Shown one piece after another: positions 19,053 through 30,290 of a stretch of 64,000 nt of DNA. Every line of letters begins with the position of its first letter. Position 1 is the first letter of the stretch. Position numbers and translations under genes: made by a program. The DNA is from Caldisericaceae bacterium (GTDB lineage Bacteria > Caldisericota > Caldisericia > Caldisericales > Caldisericaceae): assembly GCA_027023025.1 (NCBI GenBank), contig JALVXB010000043.1:1-64000 (forward strand). Direction: 5' to 3'. The notes beneath the pieces are model-generated. The model ran no database searches, was not told where the DNA came from, and saw only the letters and a program-made list of their open reading frames with translations.

Positions 19053-20951
19053 GTGGAAGGTGTATTAAAAAGATTTCTTATTATTGTTGTAGTCACTTTT
19101 TTATTTTTTGCAGGCATTATATCCAGGTATAGCGAACTTATCTGGATATATCATTCTTATCTTTTCGCATTGTTAATATTACTTATTTTTGTGATGTTTA
19201 CCCTGTGGATGCTTAAGTCTAACGAAATCCACATACTCACCGCAAGCCCGCTCGTTTATACCGTGATTGCAGTATTTATGCTTCTTATTACTACTTCTAT
19301 TTACAGGTACGATTCCGTCGTTTCTACTTACAAAGTCATTACCCCTATTCTGCTATTTATCGTAGTGGTAAATCTCGTTAAAAGTAAAAAAGATCTTTTA
19401 GTAAGTGTTTACATTCTCGTTGGGTTTGGGCTCGTAATCGGTGTGATGAGTTATGTTCAATTTTATAACCTGTTGATATTTCGTTTACCATCTATATGGG
19501 GTTATGCAAACACATTTGCAGCATTTCTCGTTCTGGAAACGATGCTTGGATTTGGAATTTTCTACGAAGAGAAAAGACCTCTTGTAAAATTGTTGCTTTA
19601 CATCGTGCCGGTATTTTTTATTTTTTTAATGTTTCTTACCGTTTCCAGGGGAGGGTACATTGCTTTTGCCGTAGCGCTTTTAACGGCTTTCCTCGTTTCT
19701 CGTGAGAAGGTTAAGTTTCTAAAACAATGGGGCTTAGTGTTTATTGGTGCGGCCTTGCTTATTGCAGTTGCTGCACCAAGAGAAATAGTTCTGGAGAACT
19801 TCTTCAGGAATAAACTGCTTGCAGAGTTCTTTATAGGTATAAATCAAAATCAATCTCTTTACGATCGCATTCACCTTGCGCTTCTTTCTTTACGGATATT
19901 TAGTAAAAGGCCTATTACTGGATTTGGGCTTGGTTCTTTCAGGTATACCTTTACGAAGTTTGAAACTATCCCAGAGCACTTCAGGATTGACCCTCACTCG
20001 TTGTTTTTTAAGTTCCTTGCAGAAACAGGTATTGCCGGCACCGTAACATTTTTCGGATTTATTACTTATGTACTTTCGAAGTCACTTAAATACATTTTGA
20101 GCTTTAAGAACGATGTAATTTACGCTATGCTGTTTTCTGGCTTCGTAGGGCTGTTGTTTCACATGTGCATTGATGTGGATACCTATCCTATTATGTTTAT
20201 TATCCTTTTTATAGTACTTGCCTTGCTCATTCCTGGAGAGTTCGTTCCGAATAAGCGTAAACATAAATTTTTTTTAACAGGCATTTCAGCAGTTATAATT
20301 CTACTTGTCGTTTTCTCTCTGTTTCCGAAGACTGTTGCAGCCCGCTTTGCCGTTAAAGGTGCGCATAGTTCTGAATTTAGAAGTTACTTTAAAAAAGCTA
20401 TAAAGTTGGATACCGAAAGTGCAGTTTACAGATATTATTACGGTAGTGCTTTAGTGGAACACTTAAATAGTGCGGACGATCTAATTTCTATAAAGAGTGC
20501 TCTATCTGAATACAAGGCGGCAGAACGGCTAAACAAAAATGACTTCAGGTACCCGTTCGAAAGTGGTAAGATTATGATTTTTTTGTACGATAGTAGTGCC
20601 CTGGCCAGCCTTGAGCGTGCCCGTAATTTATATCCTTCCGATGGGCGTATTTGTTTGTGGAGCTCCGTTGCGTATGCAGTTCTTACGGACGATACAAATC
20701 GCGCAGGTTACTTTTTTGACAGGGCAAAAAGTTTAGGAATAAACGATTCTGGTAAAGATCTTGATTATTTATTTGCAAAATCTATATATCTTCTCAGGAG
20801 TGGCAAGACATACGAAGCAAAAGAGACTTTTAAGAAAATGTCTTTTCTTGCCAATCTTTACGATACTCTTGGCACTCAGGATCGCAACTTTTCTCACGGT
20901 ATTTTTTTACTCGAGGAGAAGTTGTTTTCCGATCTAATTCGTGAGTCTTAA
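19053..20951 (+). CDS. O-antigen ligase/polymerase-family membrane protein with TPR-like tail
   Basis: 632 residues with about ten to eleven membrane segments in the first 420. Wzy_C/WaaL-type signatures are visible: GYANTFAAFLVLETML, FLTVSRGGYIAFAVAL, and the large periplasmic loop with PITGFGLGSFRYTF and DPHSLFFKFLAETGI. The last 200 residues are helical repeats resembling TPRs. Such proteins ligate or polymerise lipid-linked glycans, and some (PglL) glycosylate proteins. Closely related in layout to the protein at 25147. The GTG start lies six bases after the galE-like stop, so the genes are co-transcribed. Confidence 0.8.
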   Translation: MEGVLKRFLIIVVVTFLFFAGIISRYSELIWIYHSYLFALLILLIFVMFTLWMLKSNEIHILTASPLVYTVIAVFMLLITTSIYRYDSVVSTYKVITPILLFIVVVNLVKSKKDLLVSVYILVGFGLVIGVMSYVQFYNLLIFRLPSIWGYANTFAAFLVLETMLGFGIFYEEKRPLVKLLLYIVPVFFIFLMFLTVSRGGYIAFAVALLTAFLVSREKVKFLKQWGLVFIGAALLIAVAAPREIVLENFFRNKLLAEFFIGINQNQSLYDRIHLALLSLRIFSKRPITGFGLGSFRYTFTKFETIPEHFRIDPHSLFFKFLAETGIAGTVTFFGFITYVLSKSLKYILSFKNDVIYAMLFSGFVGLLFHMCIDVDTYPIMFIILFIVLALLIPGEFVPNKRKHKFFLTGISAVIILLVVFSLFPKTVAARFAVKGAHSSEFRSYFKKAIKLDTESAVYRYYYGSALVEHLNSADDLISIKSALSEYKAAERLNKNDFRYPFESGKIMIFLYDSSALASLERARNLYPSDGRICLWSSVAYAVLTDDTNRAGYFFDRAKSLGINDSGKDLDYLFAKSIYLLRSGKTYEAKETFKKMSFLANLYDTLGTQDRNFSHGIFLLEEKLFSDLIRES

Positions 20952-23074: not shown

Positions 23075-23812
23075 TTATGCGTGTAGTTCTTTCTTTGCTA
23101 TCCAGCGAGTACCTTCAGGTGTTATGAGTAGTACATCTATCGGGCCGCCTACTGTTTTAAGCCGTGCCTGGAAGCGGATGGTGTCTATCGTTGTTTTTAC
23201 TGCGTAAATTGCAAAGTCAATTGCGTCCTGCAAAGGCATTGCATCCCAGATGATCGGTGGTTTTTGTATCTGCACGAATTGTCCGCTTTGGTTTCGAGTC
23301 CATGCAGGTTGTAAAATCTCTGCAATAATATCGCCTTCTCCTCCCCAGCTTGCACCGTAAAGCACTTTTTGCATTTGTTGGGAATAATTCAGTCTTTTTA
23401 GTTCGCCTCTCTTTATATTCGAGTGATAAACAAACGGTATACTTACCTTGCCTTTCTTTCTGTATCCTGCAATGTGAAAAGAAGTATCTGCGTTAGGAAA
23501 CTTTACTTTAAAGAAATTCAGCAGTTTTTCAGCGATACTTTCGACATCGTCGCGTGCATCAAGCTTTTCTTCTTCAAACTCTTTAAGGTGGAAATCCATA
23601 GGCACTTTTCCCAGCAGGGATTCTCCAAATGTGCTGATTCCTACATTTTGTGCTTTTAGCAGGTATGTTTTGTATACATAGTCGGAACTTACCGTTTGTA
23701 TTGGCGGGTATTCTTTGCCACTATCGTCCTTTCTCTGTATAGTAATGCTCTGCCTGCTGTCTGATGCCATCACTATACCTGATGGCACATAAACTGTTAT
23801 AATAAATGACAT
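23075..23812 (-). CDS. Proteasome-like Ntn-hydrolase family protein
   Basis: 245 residues. The N-terminus MSFIITVYVPSGIVMASDSR aligns by eye with proteasome beta subunits: after Met removal Ser1 occupies the nucleophile position and Asp17 falls in the conserved (A/S)DSR motif. A VYKTYLL segment and GISTFGESLLG may correspond to the Lys33 and Gly47 regions. It is longer than HslV and close in size to Anbu-type homologues, but lacks Anbu's usual N-terminus. It starts 11 bases after the ahcY stop, with GGAGGCAG before the ATG, so it is probably cotranscribed. Function unknown; self-processing and peptidase activity are inference. Confidence 0.6.
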   Translation of the reverse strand: MSFIITVYVPSGIVMASDSRQSITIQRKDDSGKEYPPIQTVSSDYVYKTYLLKAQNVGISTFGESLLGKVPMDFHLKEFEEEKLDARDDVESIAEKLLNFFKVKFPNADTSFHIAGYRKKGKVSIPFVYHSNIKRGELKRLNYSQQMQKVLYGASWGGEGDIIAEILQPAWTRNQSGQFVQIQKPPIIWDAMPLQDAIDFAIYAVKTTIDTIRFQARLKTVGGPIDVLLITPEGTRWIAKKELHA

Positions 23813-23822
23813 TTCTGCCTCC

Positions 23823-25043
23823 TTAATGGGATTTTGTTAAATAATTTATCTGTTTTTGAGTAAGTTTGTCGATTTTTATTTTGTTTGCCTTTAACATTTC
23901 CTCTGCGACTTTCGTATCAATTTCTTCCGGAACATTATAGACTTTGTTTTGCAACTTTCCTTTGTTTTTTAACAGGTATTCTACGGAAAGTGCCTGCAGC
24001 GCAAACGAAAGGTCCATTATTTCGATGGGGTGTCCATCTGCGCAGGCAAGGTTTACGAGCCTCCCTTCCCCTAATACATAAACCCTGTTTTTGTTAGGTA
24101 GTGTATATTCTGTAATGTTTTTTCTAACGATACGCTTTTTTACGGCGAATTTTTCTAATTCAGGCATGTTAATTTCTACATTGAAGTGTCCTGCATTTGC
24201 AAGGATTGCACCGTCTTTAAGCAGTGCAAAGTGCCTTTTATCGATAACATTTGTGTCGCCGGTTGTGGTGACGAATATATCTCCTGCTTTTGCGGCTTCT
24301 TTCATTGGCAGTACAGTAAAGCCTTCCATGTGTGCTTCCATTGCCCTTATTGGGTTTACCTCGGTTACAAATACGCGTGCGCCGAGCCCTCTTGCTCTTA
24401 CTGCAACGCCTCTGCCTACCCAGCCAAAGCCTGCAACTACGACATTTTTACCTGCAATCGTGATGTTCGTCGTTCTGATTATTCCGTCCCATGTGGACTG
24501 TCCTGTCCCGTATCTATTGTCGAATAGATATTTACATTGCCCGTTGTTTACAGCGATTACAGGAAACTTTAATTTATTTTCGTTTTGCAGTGCTTTGTCT
24601 CGGATTACCCCTGTAGTTGTTTCTTCGCTTGCACCAATAATATTTTTAAGCAATTCTTTTCTCTTTGTGTGTACGAGATATACCATATCTCCGCCGTCGT
24701 CTACTATAATGTCTGGCTTTATGTCGAGTACTTTATTGTAGTTTTCCCAGTATTCTTTCTCGCTCTCCCCGTATTTTGCATACACTTTTACGCTTTTTCT
24801 TGCTAGTGCTTCTGCTACATCGTCCTGGGTGGTTAAGGGATTTGAGCCTGTGATTGCAACTGTTGCTCCACCTTCCTTTAATATGTATGCGAGATTTGCA
24901 GTTTTTGCTTCGAGGTGCAAGGCCATTGCAATTTTTAGGCCTTTAAACGGTTTTTCTTTTTTGAAGCGCTTCTCGATATTTTTCATAATAGGCATGTTTC
25001 TCATTGCCCATTCCATTTTCAATTTACCGGAATTTTTGTCCAT
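23823..25043 (-). CDS. ahcY: Adenosylhomocysteinase
   Basis: 406 residues, the short form common in archaea and thermophiles. It has NGQCKYLFDNRYGTGQSTWD, the NAD-binding loop VVVAGFGWVGRGVAVRA, TEVNPIRAMEAHMEG, NAGHFNVEI and LACADGHPIEIMDLSF. Hydrolyses S-adenosylhomocysteine to homocysteine and adenosine, which relieves product inhibition of methyltransferases. It lacks the extra C-terminal PDHYRY tail of the long bacterial/eukaryotic form. First gene of a two-gene minus-strand operon with the Ntn hydrolase. Confidence 0.95.
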   Translation of the reverse strand: MDKNSGKLKMEWAMRNMPIMKNIEKRFKKEKPFKGLKIAMALHLEAKTANLAYILKEGGATVAITGSNPLTTQDDVAEALARKSVKVYAKYGESEKEYWENYNKVLDIKPDIIVDDGGDMVYLVHTKRKELLKNIIGASEETTTGVIRDKALQNENKLKFPVIAVNNGQCKYLFDNRYGTGQSTWDGIIRTTNITIAGKNVVVAGFGWVGRGVAVRARGLGARVFVTEVNPIRAMEAHMEGFTVLPMKEAAKAGDIFVTTTGDTNVIDKRHFALLKDGAILANAGHFNVEINMPELEKFAVKKRIVRKNITEYTLPNKNRVYVLGEGRLVNLACADGHPIEIMDLSFALQALSVEYLLKNKGKLQNKVYNVPEEIDTKVAEEMLKANKIKIDKLTQKQINYLTKSH

Positions 25044-25146: not shown

Positions 25147-27582
25147 ATGAAAAAGAAAAAACAAGGAAAAAGGAAAATCGTCGAACGAAAAAAGACAGAA
25201 TTTAATGTTAACTTTATTATTTTAATTCTCGCTCTCGTTCCTCTATTTTTTGCAGGTATTTTTCAGGGTGGCTATTTTCCATGGGAAGTTTATGCAACTC
25301 TCCTTCTTTCTTTACCTGCAATGGCTTTGTTTTTGCTTAAAAAAGTTTACAAAAAGGAGCAGATTCGAAAAAGTGGTGCAGATAAAGGAATTTTTGTCTA
25401 TCTTGGCGTAGCGTTTCTTTCGCTATTTTTTACGGTTTACTTCCACGCGACTCTCACTGAGTTTTACAAAGTACTTATATACATTTCTTTGTTTTACATT
25501 ATATACGATAGTATAAACGGCAAAAGGGATGTAGAGTTTATACTTAACGCAATTTTGCTTCTTGGGTTGATACTTTCTGCTCTGGGAATTCTTGCATTCG
25601 TAGGCATGAGAAACCATTTGCAGGGTGCCTTCTTTGTGTTTTTGAAAAATAATGGCCTTATACAGGGTTTGCGTATTTCTTCTACCCTACAATATGCAAA
25701 CACATTTGCCGCGTTCCTTATTCTGCAGTTCTTTATCGCAGTGGGTTTTTGGCTTGAAAAGAATAGCCTAACTGCAAAGTTAGTTTACGGTTCGTTGTCT
25801 TTATTCTTTCTCGTTACGCTTTTACTTACGCAGTCAAGAGGAGGAATTATTGCGTTCGTCATCACATTAATTATCTACTTTATATTTGCTAAAGGAAGTG
25901 ACAGAAAATTAAGTGCACTTGGGCTTGCTGGAGTTGTTCTGGCTTTTGCTTTTCTCGTTCTGATAAAAAGCGATTTATTCTTACCCGTTATAAAGTCTTT
26001 CTGGAAGAGGGTCGTAACTCTTCTTGCATTCTTTGGTGGAAAGTCTAATGTTTCGCTTGGCGATCGCGAGAATATGCTTAAAGACAGTTTGAAAATTTTA
26101 AAAGAGCACCCAATATTTGGCACGGGCAATGGCACTTATCAGTATGTGTACATGAAGTACCGTTCTGTTTACTTCTTTTCAAAATTCCCACACAGTATTT
26201 TCTTTCAAGTGTTGGACGAAACAGGTGTCGTCGGTGCTGCGGCATTTCTCTATATGCTTTACGAGTTAATTAGAAGAGCAGTTAATAAGATTAAAAAACA
26301 CTATAGTATATTGGATGTTGCGTTGTTCAGTGGTTTGATGGGTATGCTTATACATGCATTTGTCGACTTTGACTGGTCGCTTATGTTTATGCCGCTTCTC
26401 TTCTTTGTTGGGTTTGCCGTTCTTCTGCAAACGGAAGAGCGAGAGTACTTTACATTAGTATGTCCTTTGCGAAAACAAAAGATAGAAACAAAAAAATATA
26501 CGCATAGAAAAAAGGAGAATAACATCGGTAAATTAGTAGGTGTTTATGGCATTATAACTGCGATGTTTTTCGTATTTTTATTCCCATTTATAGGGGCACG
26601 GGCAGATTTTAATGCAAAGCGAAGTATGGGGCGTGTGCCATGGCAAAAAACCGTTTCAATGTTTAATATAGCAACTAGTACAGACCCGCTTTGTTCCGAG
26701 TATCATTACGACCTTGCGCACTTCTACTTTCAGGCTCTTATTCCTGCATCTCAAAATCCTTCTCAGTTTATAACAAAAGCAGAGGAACAGTATAAAGCAG
26801 CGATAAAACACTGTCCGGAATTTTTCCTGTACCACTTTGAACTTGCCCGTCTTTATTTGCAAACTGGAAATAAAGAAGCAATAGACGAGTTCACTAAAGC
26901 GGTGCAGCTAAACCCGATTGATGCAGGCGGCCATGCTGCGCTGGGGTTTGCGTATTTAAAACTCAAGAAAGACACCGTAATGGCGAAGGTACAGTTTGAA
27001 GAAGCATTAAAACTGGATCCGAAAAATTCTGATGCGTATCTCGGATTTGGACAACTGTACGAACAAATGGGTAATGTAGACAAAGCGATACAAAATTATC
27101 AGCTTGCAATTAAGTACAATAGAAGGAATGCTTACGCGTATTATAGGCTTGGCGTTCTTTACGAAAAACAGGGAAAGATGCCAGAGGCCGTGCATAATTT
27201 GTTTTATGCGGTTCGGTATAATCCGTCTTTACGGGAGGCAAAAGACGAATTTGAAAAATACGCACCGATTATTACGATTTTGTCTCCTATGCCAAATCAA
27301 AGCGTAAAAGCAGGAGGAAATTTGGAAATTAAGTGGACAGCGTCAAATATAAAAAATGTAGAATACTACAATATATTCCTTATTCCTAAGAGAGGGAAAT
27401 GGGTAACGGTGAAGACAGGATTACCTAAAAGTGTGAATTCTTATTTGTATAAAATACCTAATAATTTGGCTTCAGGGCAGTACAAATTGAGAATATACGC
27501 AGTAGCGCCAAAATTTATGCAGAGGAAGTTGGGCAGTTGGCTTTCATATGGTGAATCAGGCTATTTGAATATTTCAAAATAA
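25147..27582 (+). CDS. O-antigen ligase/polymerase-like membrane protein with TPR and C-terminal beta domain
   Basis: 811 residues. A basic N-terminus (KKKKQGKRKIVERKK) precedes about eleven membrane segments with the same signatures as its paralogue at 19053 (LQYANTFAAFLILQFF, LTQSRGGIIAFVI, HPIFGTGNGTYQYVY, PHSIFFQVLDETG). After residue 500 come canonical TPR units (YKAAIKHCPEFFLYHFELA, FEEALKLDPKNSDAYLGFG, YQLAIKYNRRNAYAYYRLG), then a final beta-sandwich-like segment (ITILSPMPNQSVKAGGNLEI). Probably ligates, polymerises or transfers surface glycans. Wzz-like protein is encoded next. Confidence 0.8.
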   Translation: MKKKKQGKRKIVERKKTEFNVNFIILILALVPLFFAGIFQGGYFPWEVYATLLLSLPAMALFLLKKVYKKEQIRKSGADKGIFVYLGVAFLSLFFTVYFHATLTEFYKVLIYISLFYIIYDSINGKRDVEFILNAILLLGLILSALGILAFVGMRNHLQGAFFVFLKNNGLIQGLRISSTLQYANTFAAFLILQFFIAVGFWLEKNSLTAKLVYGSLSLFFLVTLLLTQSRGGIIAFVITLIIYFIFAKGSDRKLSALGLAGVVLAFAFLVLIKSDLFLPVIKSFWKRVVTLLAFFGGKSNVSLGDRENMLKDSLKILKEHPIFGTGNGTYQYVYMKYRSVYFFSKFPHSIFFQVLDETGVVGAAAFLYMLYELIRRAVNKIKKHYSILDVALFSGLMGMLIHAFVDFDWSLMFMPLLFFVGFAVLLQTEEREYFTLVCPLRKQKIETKKYTHRKKENNIGKLVGVYGIITAMFFVFLFPFIGARADFNAKRSMGRVPWQKTVSMFNIATSTDPLCSEYHYDLAHFYFQALIPASQNPSQFITKAEEQYKAAIKHCPEFFLYHFELARLYLQTGNKEAIDEFTKAVQLNPIDAGGHAALGFAYLKLKKDTVMAKVQFEEALKLDPKNSDAYLGFGQLYEQMGNVDKAIQNYQLAIKYNRRNAYAYYRLGVLYEKQGKMPEAVHNLFYAVRYNPSLREAKDEFEKYAPIITILSPMPNQSVKAGGNLEIKWTASNIKNVEYYNIFLIPKRGKWVTVKTGLPKSVNSYLYKIPNNLASGQYKLRIYAVAPKFMQRKLGSWLSYGESGYLNISK

Positions 27583-27635: not shown

Positions 27636-28529
27636 ATGAGTGAGAAAGAATTAAGTTTGAAAAATTATATTAATGTAATGTTAGAGTGGAAATGGCTTGT
27701 AATTTGTATTACAGTTGTTTCTATGCTTATTGCAACTGTGTTTGTCTTTATATCACCGGAAGTTTATAAAGGAAATGCAATGTTGGAATTACCATTTATA
27801 CCTCAGGCTCAAATCGGGAATTGGTTATCCACTACCTCTAACGGTGTAGTTTTTGACGGGCTTTCTTTCAGTCCTGACGAAATTGCAAATTTTGTCAAGT
27901 CTAACGCTTTTTTAGAGATTATTTCTAAAGATTGTAAAATTCCGTTTTCGTCTATCCAGTCTTTTCTCACTGTTAATCCTGTAAAGAATACAAAAATACT
28001 GTCTATAACATTTGAGAATTCAGATAAAGATAATATAAGGAAGTTCTTCACAGATTTAATGATAAAGCTCCAATCTTCTCAATATGGCGTTCTATATAAT
28101 AAAGAAAAAGAATTCCTTACTAATTATAAGGTTTCTTTGCAGCACCAGATTCAGGAAAACGAAAAAGTTCTATATTCCGCTAAGAAAGTAATTAATTTAA
28201 TCAACCAAAAAATGCCAAACGATATTGATTCCTTCATTTTATACTCTAAAGATTTGAGTGAGTATTCTGAGCTAAGTGATAAACAGAATGTTCTAACAGA
28301 TAAATTGATTGCTATTGAAAGTGTATTAAACAATACCCACGGTTTTAATTATATAAGCGGGGTATATATAGAGAATAAGCCAGTGAAGCCCAAGAAACTG
28401 TTCAATATAGCAGTTGCGGGAACGGCAGGTTTTTTCTTTGCTATTTTGCTTGCGTTTTTCCTTGAATACATGCAGGGAAGTGAAGATAAAAATAGGACAG
28501 AAAAAACCACAGGTGATAGTAATAAATAG
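27636..28529 (+). CDS. Wzz/Lpp-type chain-length-determinant-like protein
   Basis: 297 residues with the Wzz layout: cytoplasmic N-terminus, first membrane helix LVICITVVSMLIATVFVFIS, an extracytoplasmic segment starting EVYKGNAMLELPF, a helical middle region (about residues 165-245), a pre-membrane NKPVKPKKLFN segment and a second helix GTAGFFFAILLAFFLEYM. The proline-rich pre-membrane segment (KPVKPKK) is typical. No tyrosine-kinase domain is fused. It presumably sets glycan chain length with the polymerase-like protein upstream. GGAAGGCG precedes ATG 27636. Confidence 0.8.
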   Translation: MSEKELSLKNYINVMLEWKWLVICITVVSMLIATVFVFISPEVYKGNAMLELPFIPQAQIGNWLSTTSNGVVFDGLSFSPDEIANFVKSNAFLEIISKDCKIPFSSIQSFLTVNPVKNTKILSITFENSDKDNIRKFFTDLMIKLQSSQYGVLYNKEKEFLTNYKVSLQHQIQENEKVLYSAKKVINLINQKMPNDIDSFILYSKDLSEYSELSDKQNVLTDKLIAIESVLNNTHGFNYISGVYIENKPVKPKKLFNIAVAGTAGFFFAILLAFFLEYMQGSEDKNRTEKTTGDSNK

Positions 28530-28758: not shown

Positions 28759-28807
28759 CCCCGCCTTTTGGATGGATATGCATAATGTGGGGCGGGGGTA
28801 ATTTTTT
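28759..28807. terminator. Possible bidirectional terminator between wzz-like and folD
   Basis: CCCCGCC (28759-28765) pairs with GGCGGGG (28791-28797) around a 25-base loop, followed by a T run at 28802-28807 on the plus strand. The convergent folD stop lies at 28806. The large loop makes this a moderate call. Confidence 0.45.
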
Positions 28808-29654
28808 ATTCGAGATTATTCTGGATTTTTGCAGCTTTTATAGTATTTTTTATAAGCATTAAGGTGGTAAGTACTCCGATTCCACCGGGAACGGGTGTAA
28901 TTGCACCTGCGACATCCACTACATCGTCGAAGTCTACATCTCCTACGATCTTGCCGTTTACTTTATTGATTCCAACATCTATTACTACAGCACCACGCTT
29001 TACGAAATGCCTGTTTATCATTTTGGGTCTTCCCGTCGAAACGACGAGAATGTCTGCTTTGCTTGCAACGAGTGGCAAATTCTTTGTATGGGAGTGGCAG
29101 ATTGTGACTGTGGCATTTTCAGCAAGTAAAAGAAGTGCAGCAGGCTTACCCACGATGTTGCTGCGCCCAATAACTACTGCGGACTTTCCATCAATGCTCG
29201 TCGTGCGTTTTATCGTTTCGATTACACTTTGTGCAGTTGCCGGTATAAACATAGGGTTTCCTTCAAGCAATCTCCCCATGTTTATCGGGTGGAATGCATC
29301 GATGTCTTTGTCGGGATTAATAGTTGCAAGTACTTTTTTACTGTCGATGTTTTTTGGCAAAGGTAACTCTACGATAATTCCGTTTATCTCTTTTCTTTCG
29401 TTTAACTTTTTAATTGCTGAAAGTACATCTTCTTCTGATGCCTCTTCGTTCATTCTAAAGTGTTCTGCATAAACGCCAAGCTTCTCTGCTCGTTTTCTGA
29501 TACTTCGTGCATAGGTTTCGCTTGCCTTGTTATCGCCTACTTGAAGAATGGATAAAGACGGAGTAATTCCGTGCTTTTTAATTTCTTCAACTTCCTTTGC
29601 AAGTTCCTGCTCTATGTCTTTTGATAAGCTTTTCCCGTCAATTATCTTGCTAAT
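28806..29654 (-). CDS. folD: Methylenetetrahydrofolate dehydrogenase/cyclohydrolase
   Basis: 282 residues with the family signatures ETYARSIRKRAEKLG, GIIVELPLPKNID, DKDIDAFHPINMGRL and AVVIGRSNIVGKPAALLLL. Bifunctional oxidation/hydrolysis of 5,10-methylene-THF to 10-formyl-THF. The conserved N-terminus (SKIIDGKSL) begins directly after an ATT codon at 29654, with AGGAGGTG upstream and a -10 TATAAT (plus 29683-29688) only about 30 bases away. No ATG, GTG or TTG lies in frame between that promoter and the conserved sequence. The start therefore appears to be ATT, or an ATG mutated or misread. Longer frames would begin upstream of the promoter and are rejected. Confidence 0.93.
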   Translation of the reverse strand: MSKIIDGKSLSKDIEQELAKEVEEIKKHGITPSLSILQVGDNKASETYARSIRKRAEKLGVYAEHFRMNEEASEEDVLSAIKKLNERKEINGIIVELPLPKNIDSKKVLATINPDKDIDAFHPINMGRLLEGNPMFIPATAQSVIETIKRTTSIDGKSAVVIGRSNIVGKPAALLLLAENATVTICHSHTKNLPLVASKADILVVSTGRPKMINRHFVKRGAVVIDVGINKVNGKIVGDVDFDDVVDVAGAITPVPGGIGVLTTLMLIKNTIKAAKIQNNLE

Positions 29655-29682
29655 GGTGCACCTCCTATCGTTTTTGAATACT

Positions 29683-29714
29683 ATTATACTATTTTTGCAA
29701 TAAAATGCTATAAT
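29683..29714. promoter_or_regulatory. Overlapping divergent promoters of folD and the HAS-barrel/herA pair
   Basis: Minus-strand -10 TATAAT (plus 29683-29688) serves folD. Plus-strand extended -10 TGCTATAAT (29706-29714) serves the gene at 29721, whose ATG follows 6 bases later without a leader. Neither has a strong -35. The two polymerase sites overlap and would compete. Confidence 0.6.
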
Positions 29715-29720
29715 ACGAAT

Positions 29721-30290
29721 ATGAAACACATAGGAGAAGTAATCACAGTTCGCTCTGATGTACTCGTTGCTGAGGGGGAGAGAAGTGCTCTTCCGCCTCT
29801 CGGGACTATCCTGAAAAGCGATCGTGGTGTTTTGTGTCTCGTCGTTTCGCACTCGATAGACAACAAAATTCCTGGCCGTATGCCAATTGCATACGGAAAG
29901 AGCATAGAGCAACTGGAAAGAGAACAGCCACAGGTGTTTGCACTTATGAAGTGGATGTTTCAGGCGATTCCTTTTGGTACTTTAAGTGAAGGTTCTGTAG
30001 AATTGTTTCTTAATAAGGTAGTGGAAATACATACATTATTATTTGAAACACGGAAGGAAGAAAGGGATCTCATCTTTAAAGAATTGCGTTTTTTTGACTT
30101 TCTATTTTCTATTGATAAAAGTGTATTTCCGCAAAGAGATAAAATCATTGTATCGCTTATTAACGCTTACCTGAACGATTTATTGGAAGTAAAAGAAGAC
30201 GAATATGTAAGAATTTTTTCTTATATTTCTAAGATATTGAGAAACGATTACCAAACACTTAAGTATATTATGGACGGTGTAAGTATATGA
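29721..30290 (+). CDS. HAS-barrel-like protein paired with HerA
   Basis: 189 residues. The first 80 (HIGEVITVRSDVLVAEGER...) resemble the beta-rich HAS-barrel seen at the N-terminus of HerA-type ATPases and their partners; the rest is predicted helical. It overlaps the HerA-like gene by ATGA, so the products are likely to act together. The transcript appears leaderless. Assignment rests on weak sequence resemblance plus context. Confidence 0.5.
   Translation: MKHIGEVITVRSDVLVAEGERSALPPLGTILKSDRGVLCLVVSHSIDNKIPGRMPIAYGKSIEQLEREQPQVFALMKWMFQAIPFGTLSEGSVELFLNKVVEIHTLLFETRKEERDLIFKELRFFDFLFSIDKSVFPQRDKIIVSLINAYLNDLLEVKEDEYVRIFSYISKILRNDYQTLKYIMDGVSI

Follow-up and report, generated by a model that had tools for sequence, protein, structure and literature searches.

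What kind of protein is encoded directly behind the adenosylhomocysteinase gene (ahcY) of a heat-loving Caldisericaceae bacterium, and does its place there carry any functional meaning? The gene is an unannotated open reading frame in the window, that is, the whole stretch of 64,000 nucleotides that was analysed, and it appears to encode a small relative of proteasome beta subunits. The features used below are as follows; active-site residues are numbered from the Ser that follows the initiator Met, and residues of the model with Met included.

23075-23812, minus strand: coding sequence of the Ser1 Ntn protein, 245 aa, kept in 17 of the 18 genomes of its own family (f1)
23807-23809, minus strand: codon of Ser1 (residue 2 counting Met), the candidate nucleophile, present in 22/22 rows of alignment A2; in most of the listed alignments to proteasome beta and Anbu chains, model residue 2 pairs with chain residue 1
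23759-23761, minus strand: codon of Asp17 (residue 18), invariant in alignments A1, A2 and A4
23669-23671, minus strand: Lys47 codon (residue 48); the residue is unchanged throughout A1, A2 and A4, immediately precedes model strand 49-52 and is a candidate equivalent of proteasome Lys33
23624-23626, minus strand: Gly62 codon (residue 63); the residue is unchanged throughout A1, A2 and A4, closes model strand 57-63 and is a candidate equivalent of the oxyanion-hole Gly47
23267-23305, minus strand: predicted beta-hairpin of the AlphaFold2 model, residues 170-182, between H3 (161-167) and H4 (194-216), where PMI-2 to PMI-6 have their H3/H4 insertion
23818-23824, minus strand: Shine-Dalgarno motif AAGGAGG, read from the sequence, overlapping the ahcY stop codon; a similar motif precedes the ATG in the other 16 loci
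23823-25043, minus strand: the adenosylhomocysteinase gene ahcY, with 10 bases between it and the Ntn gene downstream (NCBIfam NF004005, PRK05476.2-3, 8.2e-194; TIGR00936, 1.9e-175)
28806-29912, minus strand: folD (PF00763 and PF02882), with the true start probably within the open reading frame

A real gene without direct family matches

The initial annotation had placed an open reading frame beside ahcY without stating its strand; the frame is real and is read from the minus strand, with its ATG at 23812-23810 and a translation that begins MSFIITVYVPSGIVMASDSRQ. A chance or wrongly framed ORF was ruled out, because the gene is kept in 17 of the 18 f1 genomes and its dN/dS is about 0.03 (0.029 for the window gene and that of L042, the only unsaturated pair, the other seven pairs being saturated or nearly so in dS). 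The sole f1 genome without a match is 75% complete, and its assembly is also without ahcY. No PADLOC defence match was found for the protein at E<=0.1.

The window protein itself had no significant match in Pfam, NCBIfam, PADLOC or the PDB sequences, and with the Pfam Proteasome profile (PF00227) it stayed below recognition, with no match listed. According to the survey of Fuchs, Alva and Lupas (2021; PMC8665760), the proteasome-like families described there often score below the PF00227 cut-off as well. Because direct Pfam, NCBIfam and PDB sequence matches are absent, family membership by sequence is transitive: a longer relative (L033) matches PF00227 with 30.9 bits (cut-off 22.4), and profile A1 ties L033-type loci to the window protein with E values of 4.9e-13 to 1.5e-12. 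Profile A2 retrieved 14 proteasome chains among 17 weak PDB matches, all of these chains at E>=0.38, a result set aside as proof because the two best matches were to an unrelated cytidylyltransferase (E 0.03). The C-terminus of the window protein is matched by PHROG 5990, a family of unknown function, at E 1.4e-5.

PF00227 gave no match at E<=1 in the genome of this bacterium, so that no other proteasome subunit was found with that profile, and control genomes did match. Across the phylum its matches were confined to the longer relatives of one genus (7 of the 54 genomes). For hslU there were six matches in the same genome, none over the cut-off (best 94.4 vs 362.45 bits). Judged by these profiles, the genome appears to be one without a recognisable HslV, HslU or proteasome.

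Predicted fold

An AlphaFold2 model built from alignment A4, on 22 sequences, reached a mean pLDDT of 87.6 and a pTM of 0.84; an earlier model from A1, on 11 near relatives, was poor (mean pLDDT 55.6) and was set aside. The first half of the accepted model comprises strands 3-9, 12-18, 21-25, 39-43, 49-52 and 57-63 and helices 72-83 and 90-104, and the second half strands 110-120, 123-132, 137-140 and 153-158, helix 161-167, the hairpin 170-182, helix 194-216, and strands 225-231 and 234-239. The elements follow the order S1-S2...H1-H2...H3-H4-S10-S11 and are predicted to form the alpha-beta-beta-alpha sandwich of proteasome beta subunits; a fold lacking this sandwich, which would have spoken against the initial annotation, was not obtained.

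Foldseek returned 415 PDB matches at E<=0.001, and the best 50 of the 415 were all proteasome chains (best E 1.7e-8). In VIA-align, a yeast beta5 chain (Z 19.9, rmsd 2.6, 184 residues aligned) and Anbu (5nyw; Z 19.8, rmsd 2.8, 190 residues aligned) were tied, and in most of the 50 matches listed the alignment begins with model residue 2 at chain residue 1. Those 50 VIA-align matches contained no HslV or BPH chain, which excludes neither. In a viral library the top match of the model was a 219-aa phage protein named proteasome beta (E 3.9e-11). Prediction and conservation together thus indicate a proteasome-fold Ntn hydrolase, as initially annotated.

The active site and the N-terminus

The Ser1...Asp17-Ser18-Arg19 spacing is that of proteasome beta subunits, and Ser1, Asp17, Arg19, Lys47 and Gly62 are invariant in A1 (11 rows) and in A2 (22/22 rows), which bears out both the proteasome-like placement of Ser1 and Asp17 in the initial annotation and its expectation that Ser1 would be conserved in a family alignment. 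A4 also takes in proteins from phage contigs, the most distant at 26% identity; Asp17, Ser18, Lys47 and Gly62 do not vary in it, and all 21 rows with an uncut start have Ser or Thr as residue 1. Lys47 and Gly62 were equated with Lys33 and Gly47 through their order, spacing and position around model strands 49-52 and 57-63, rather than through coordinates; they lie 15 residues apart, vs 14 for Lys33-Gly47 in proteasome numbering.

The same annotation had called a Ser nucleophile unusual, a view that did not hold up. At the nucleophile position Ser outnumbers Thr by 42 to 12 among the 54 distinct relatives counted. The start pattern of this count accepted any of S, T, A, G and C as residue 1; proteins entered it if their N-terminus was intact and their length 180 aa or more, which left out truncated relatives such as L078, and only identical sequences were merged, so that close relatives were counted apart. 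The residue is likewise written as Thr1/Ser1 in the 2021 survey (PMC8665760).

A propeptide is not apparent, since a purine-rich ribosome site stands right before the ATG in 17/17 f1 loci, and the positions of start codon and ribosome site put Ser1 at the extreme N-terminus in all of them. Methionine aminopeptidases as a general rule remove Met before Ser, a permissive second residue. Taken from the alignments and the model, the active site looks intact.

Comparison with known proteasome-like proteins

The survey of Fuchs, Alva and Lupas reports 22 new proteasome-like families with a Thr1/Ser1, Asp17 and Lys33 triad; for PMI-2 to PMI-6 it describes an insertion between H3 and H4, a possible obstacle to double rings, and for PMI-3 and PMI-4 one in the pore loop (PMC8665760). 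The PMI proteins (proteasome homologs with multiple insertions; group II in that survey) resemble the window protein in Ser1/Thr1, Asp17, the Lys and Gly counterparts, helices H1-H4, the H3/H4 insertion and the lack of a propeptide. Some relatives of the window protein carry an insertion after H1/H2, the site of the PMI-3/PMI-4 pore-loop insertion, whereas in the window protein itself H2 (90-104) runs straight into strand 110-120, with no pore-loop insertion. The H3/H4 hairpin together with the missing pore-loop insertion would therefore make it a compact PMI-type protein, set beside PMI by the published description. The subfamily of the window protein is compact (242-257 aa) and has a fixed link to ahcY, whereas the survey authors report having found no genomic context or co-occurrence suggesting a function (PMC8665760). 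In the open-licence literature we found no published work on the window protein or its ahcY link. What is new here is thus the compact Ser1 subfamily and its fixed link to ahcY; the kind of protein is already known.

Anbu shares the superposable fold (Z 19.8 over 190 residues of 5nyw) and an N-terminal nucleophile without a propeptide. It is characterized by a C-terminal H5 helix that makes a coiled coil, according to the survey (PMC8665760), whereas the window protein carries the H3/H4 hairpin and its chain of 245 residues stops just past strand 234-239, with no C-terminal H5. The 20S proteasome beta subunit has the same fold (Z 19.9) and catalytic residues; the window protein differs from it in having Ser for Thr, no propeptide, a longer Asp17-Lys47 loop and the H3/H4 hairpin. 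HslV is similar in its proteasome beta-like catalytic layout, a likeness by family and not by individual alignment, and the window protein is set apart from it by Ser1, by the H3/H4 hairpin, by the blindness of PF00227 to it and by a genome with no hslU over the cut-off. The earlier remark that the protein fits neither HslV nor classical Anbu therefore agrees with the hslU and PF00227 results and with the missing helix.

Distribution of relatives

A scan of genome contigs yielded 10 related loci, nine from entries named Caldiserica, Caldisericum, Caldisericales or Caldisericaceae and one from Patescibacteria (54% identity). Within the phylum, 26 of the 54 genomes matched: 17 of the 18 of the family f1, spread over nine genera; a distant one (G053; E 3.9e-58, 41% identical); and eight, all of one genus in a second family, that encode longer proteins (frames of up to 324 codons). 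A sample of 379 genomes from the phylum of the Patescibacteria locus contained 11 matching genomes, three of them with compact proteins (244-257 aa). Alignment queries against IMG/VR brought further relatives, among them L078, 52% identical and truncated by the end of its contig. A single-sequence IMG/VR scan with the window protein confirmed no relative; with tblastn, the window protein had no match in plasmids or phages and the relative L028 none in plasmids, and L033 gave two matches in phages, both weak and partial.

Several relatives were observed on phage contigs. The compact relative of L078 (start cut) occupies positions 2-712, approximately 780 bases upstream of a gene at 1491-2300 that partially matches the head maturation protease family phrog_3017 (E 1.3e-6). 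Another relative, a 218-aa Thr1 protein (L069:5001-5657), has a phage virion structural/tail gene on one side and genes for holin and endolysin on the other. Proteins of approximately 400 aa, mostly with Thr1, occur on phage or provirus contigs (L074, L075, L076, L081-L094 and L124:1954-3198) and have in common an Asp17-region start and a VGGPID C-terminus around a large insertion; PHROG 5990, which spans 427 positions and matches the window protein and its relatives, may represent this family. A phage or mobile-element origin of the window gene was also considered and was rejected: its chromosomal place beside ahcY is fixed, even though relatives exist on phage contigs.

In Patescibacteria, long Ser1 relatives of approximately 320 aa are often found downstream of a winged-helix gene, an arrangement noted at L110:5250-6173, L111:7692-8357 and L116:7532-7837. 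Of five upstream genes scanned, three matched the LexA DNA-binding domain (PF01726), and those of L112 and L115 gave no match at 0.001. Such a pair of regulator and Ntn gene may be a second recurring context.

Linkage to ahcY and gene neighbourhood

In all 17 f1 loci with the Ntn gene, representing nine genera, ahcY lies upstream on the same strand, and it is adjacent in 16 of them, with gaps of 10-189 bases. The genera g1, g2, g3 and g7 and most of g9 have gaps of 10-16 bases, which makes co-transcription of ahcY and the Ntn gene probable in five of the nine genera; gaps of 45-189 bases in g4, g5 and g6 leave room for separate promoters, and G018 has a gap of 154 bases on a contig with masked stretches. 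In the remaining locus (G017) the gap of 2371 bases is filled by genes for an ECF sigma factor and a 602-aa protein (L047:4720-6982). A further ahcY, 53% identical, sits on a different contig of that genome. The terminator scan found no minus-strand site between ahcY and the Ntn gene, nor after the Ntn gene. The linkage to ahcY, called unusual from the outset, is indeed so: it is fixed in f1 (17/17) and absent from 14/14 neighbourhoods of other bacteria (L055-L059, L107-L113, L115 and L116; 5-16 kb each).

Further out, the neighbours vary. Directly upstream of ahcY stands folD in Caldisericum-type loci (g5) and G017, and it is also found upstream in g8; in the window, two genes, one O-antigen ligase/TPR and one Wzz-like, stand between ahcY and the same-strand folD. 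Downstream of the Ntn gene there is a metallophosphoesterase gene in g5, g6 and g8, purA in G007, G018 and G022, and in G015 a gene with a FIST domain. On either side of the ahcY-Ntn pair the window has an O-antigen-ligase-like (Wzy_C) gene (19053-20951 and 25147-27582), TPR repeats being present in one of the two, and the Wzz-like gene is located at 27636-28529.

The protein could also be a general housekeeping peptidase whose place behind ahcY is a functionally meaningless accident of inherited gene order, which we regard as a possibility to be taken seriously. The genus g1 and the Caldisericum-type g5 have part of their gene order in common (galU, Ntn, ahcY, folD, herA-like, lgt), so inheritance of order accounts for part of the linkage. 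The absence of ahcY from the 14 neighbourhoods elsewhere would fit as well, and implies that the catalytic function itself needs no ahcY. Moreover, ahcY is present in 50 of the 54 phylum genomes vs 18 with the compact Ntn protein, so that the Ntn gene probably joined an existing ahcY and not the reverse. Against a mere accident, the pair persists though the other neighbours have changed, and it is the only unit common to all nine genera.

Proposed function and alternatives

With a rough probability of 0.6 for the reading as a whole, the protein would be a stand-alone Ser1 Ntn peptidase or amidase, as judged from the alignments and the model. Methionine aminopeptidase would remove Met1, so that no propeptide would be necessary. 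Ser1 would then act as the nucleophile, the proton relay would be made up of its amino group together with Asp17 and Lys47, and the backbone at Gly62 would contribute the oxyanion hole. The resulting acyl-enzyme would be hydrolysed, hence a peptidase or an amidase. A canonical double ring would be unlikely because the predicted hairpin sits between H3 and H4, where proteasome rings stack. Since no HslU, HslV or classical proteasome was recognised in the genome, the enzyme would most likely work without a dedicated unfoldase and on a narrow set of substrates. Finally, probable co-transcription with ahcY suggests a need tied to methyl-cycle flux, for example in limited proteolysis of a protein or peptide of the pathway; this is the weakest step, and taken alone the methyl-cycle part is doubtful.

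A connectase-like protein ligase or transpeptidase, in which the Ser1 acyl-enzyme would be handed to the amino group of another protein and not to water, seems improbable to us. Connectase (the MJ0548 family) resembles the window protein in being proteasome-like with an N-terminal nucleophile, and it ligates proteins; the survey describes it as without H1-H2 and with an insert of two helices that follows S3 and precedes S4 (PMC8665760). The Asp17-Lys47 loop of the window protein, longer than that of proteasome beta, lies at the site of this insert, but it is not predicted as two helices (there is no helix between residues 26 and 49), and H1 (72-83) and H2 (90-104), missing in connectase, are present in the model. 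One relative (L028) weakly matched the Pfam connectase profile MJ0548_N, but at E 0.11 the match is not significant.

Least probable is a catalytically inactive structural or regulatory descendant comparable to proteasome alpha subunits: ordinary proteasome work is doubtful for a protein with the H3/H4 insertion and no partner unfoldase, but Ser/Thr at residue 1, Asp17, Lys47 and Gly62 are kept down to 26% identity, and in 17/17 loci Ser1 falls at the very N-terminus, as set by the start codon and the ribosome site.

Implications

Beyond the stand-alone peptidase or amidase, a more specific role may be imagined, that of an enzyme dedicated to the SAM cycle, where AhcY or a methyltransferase would be controlled by a protein or peptide that the enzyme trims, releases or ligates. 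No proteasome-like protein before it would have had a fixed partner in metabolism; we hold this role to be rather a long shot. Connectase acts on a methyltransferase subunit of methanogens, and if the SAM-cycle role were true, the protein would be a bacterial parallel to connectase.

Families of uncharacterised proteasome relatives, 22 in number, have been published without a genomic context that suggests their function (PMC8665760), and a neighbour that is fixed in nine genera offers a handle on one of them. A lineage without a recognisable proteasome or HslUV has nothing to confuse an assay, and a close relative of the gene is present in what is apparently the cultured Caldisericum exile. 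If the ahcY link is functional, it would mean a proteasome-fold enzyme tied to the methylation cycle.
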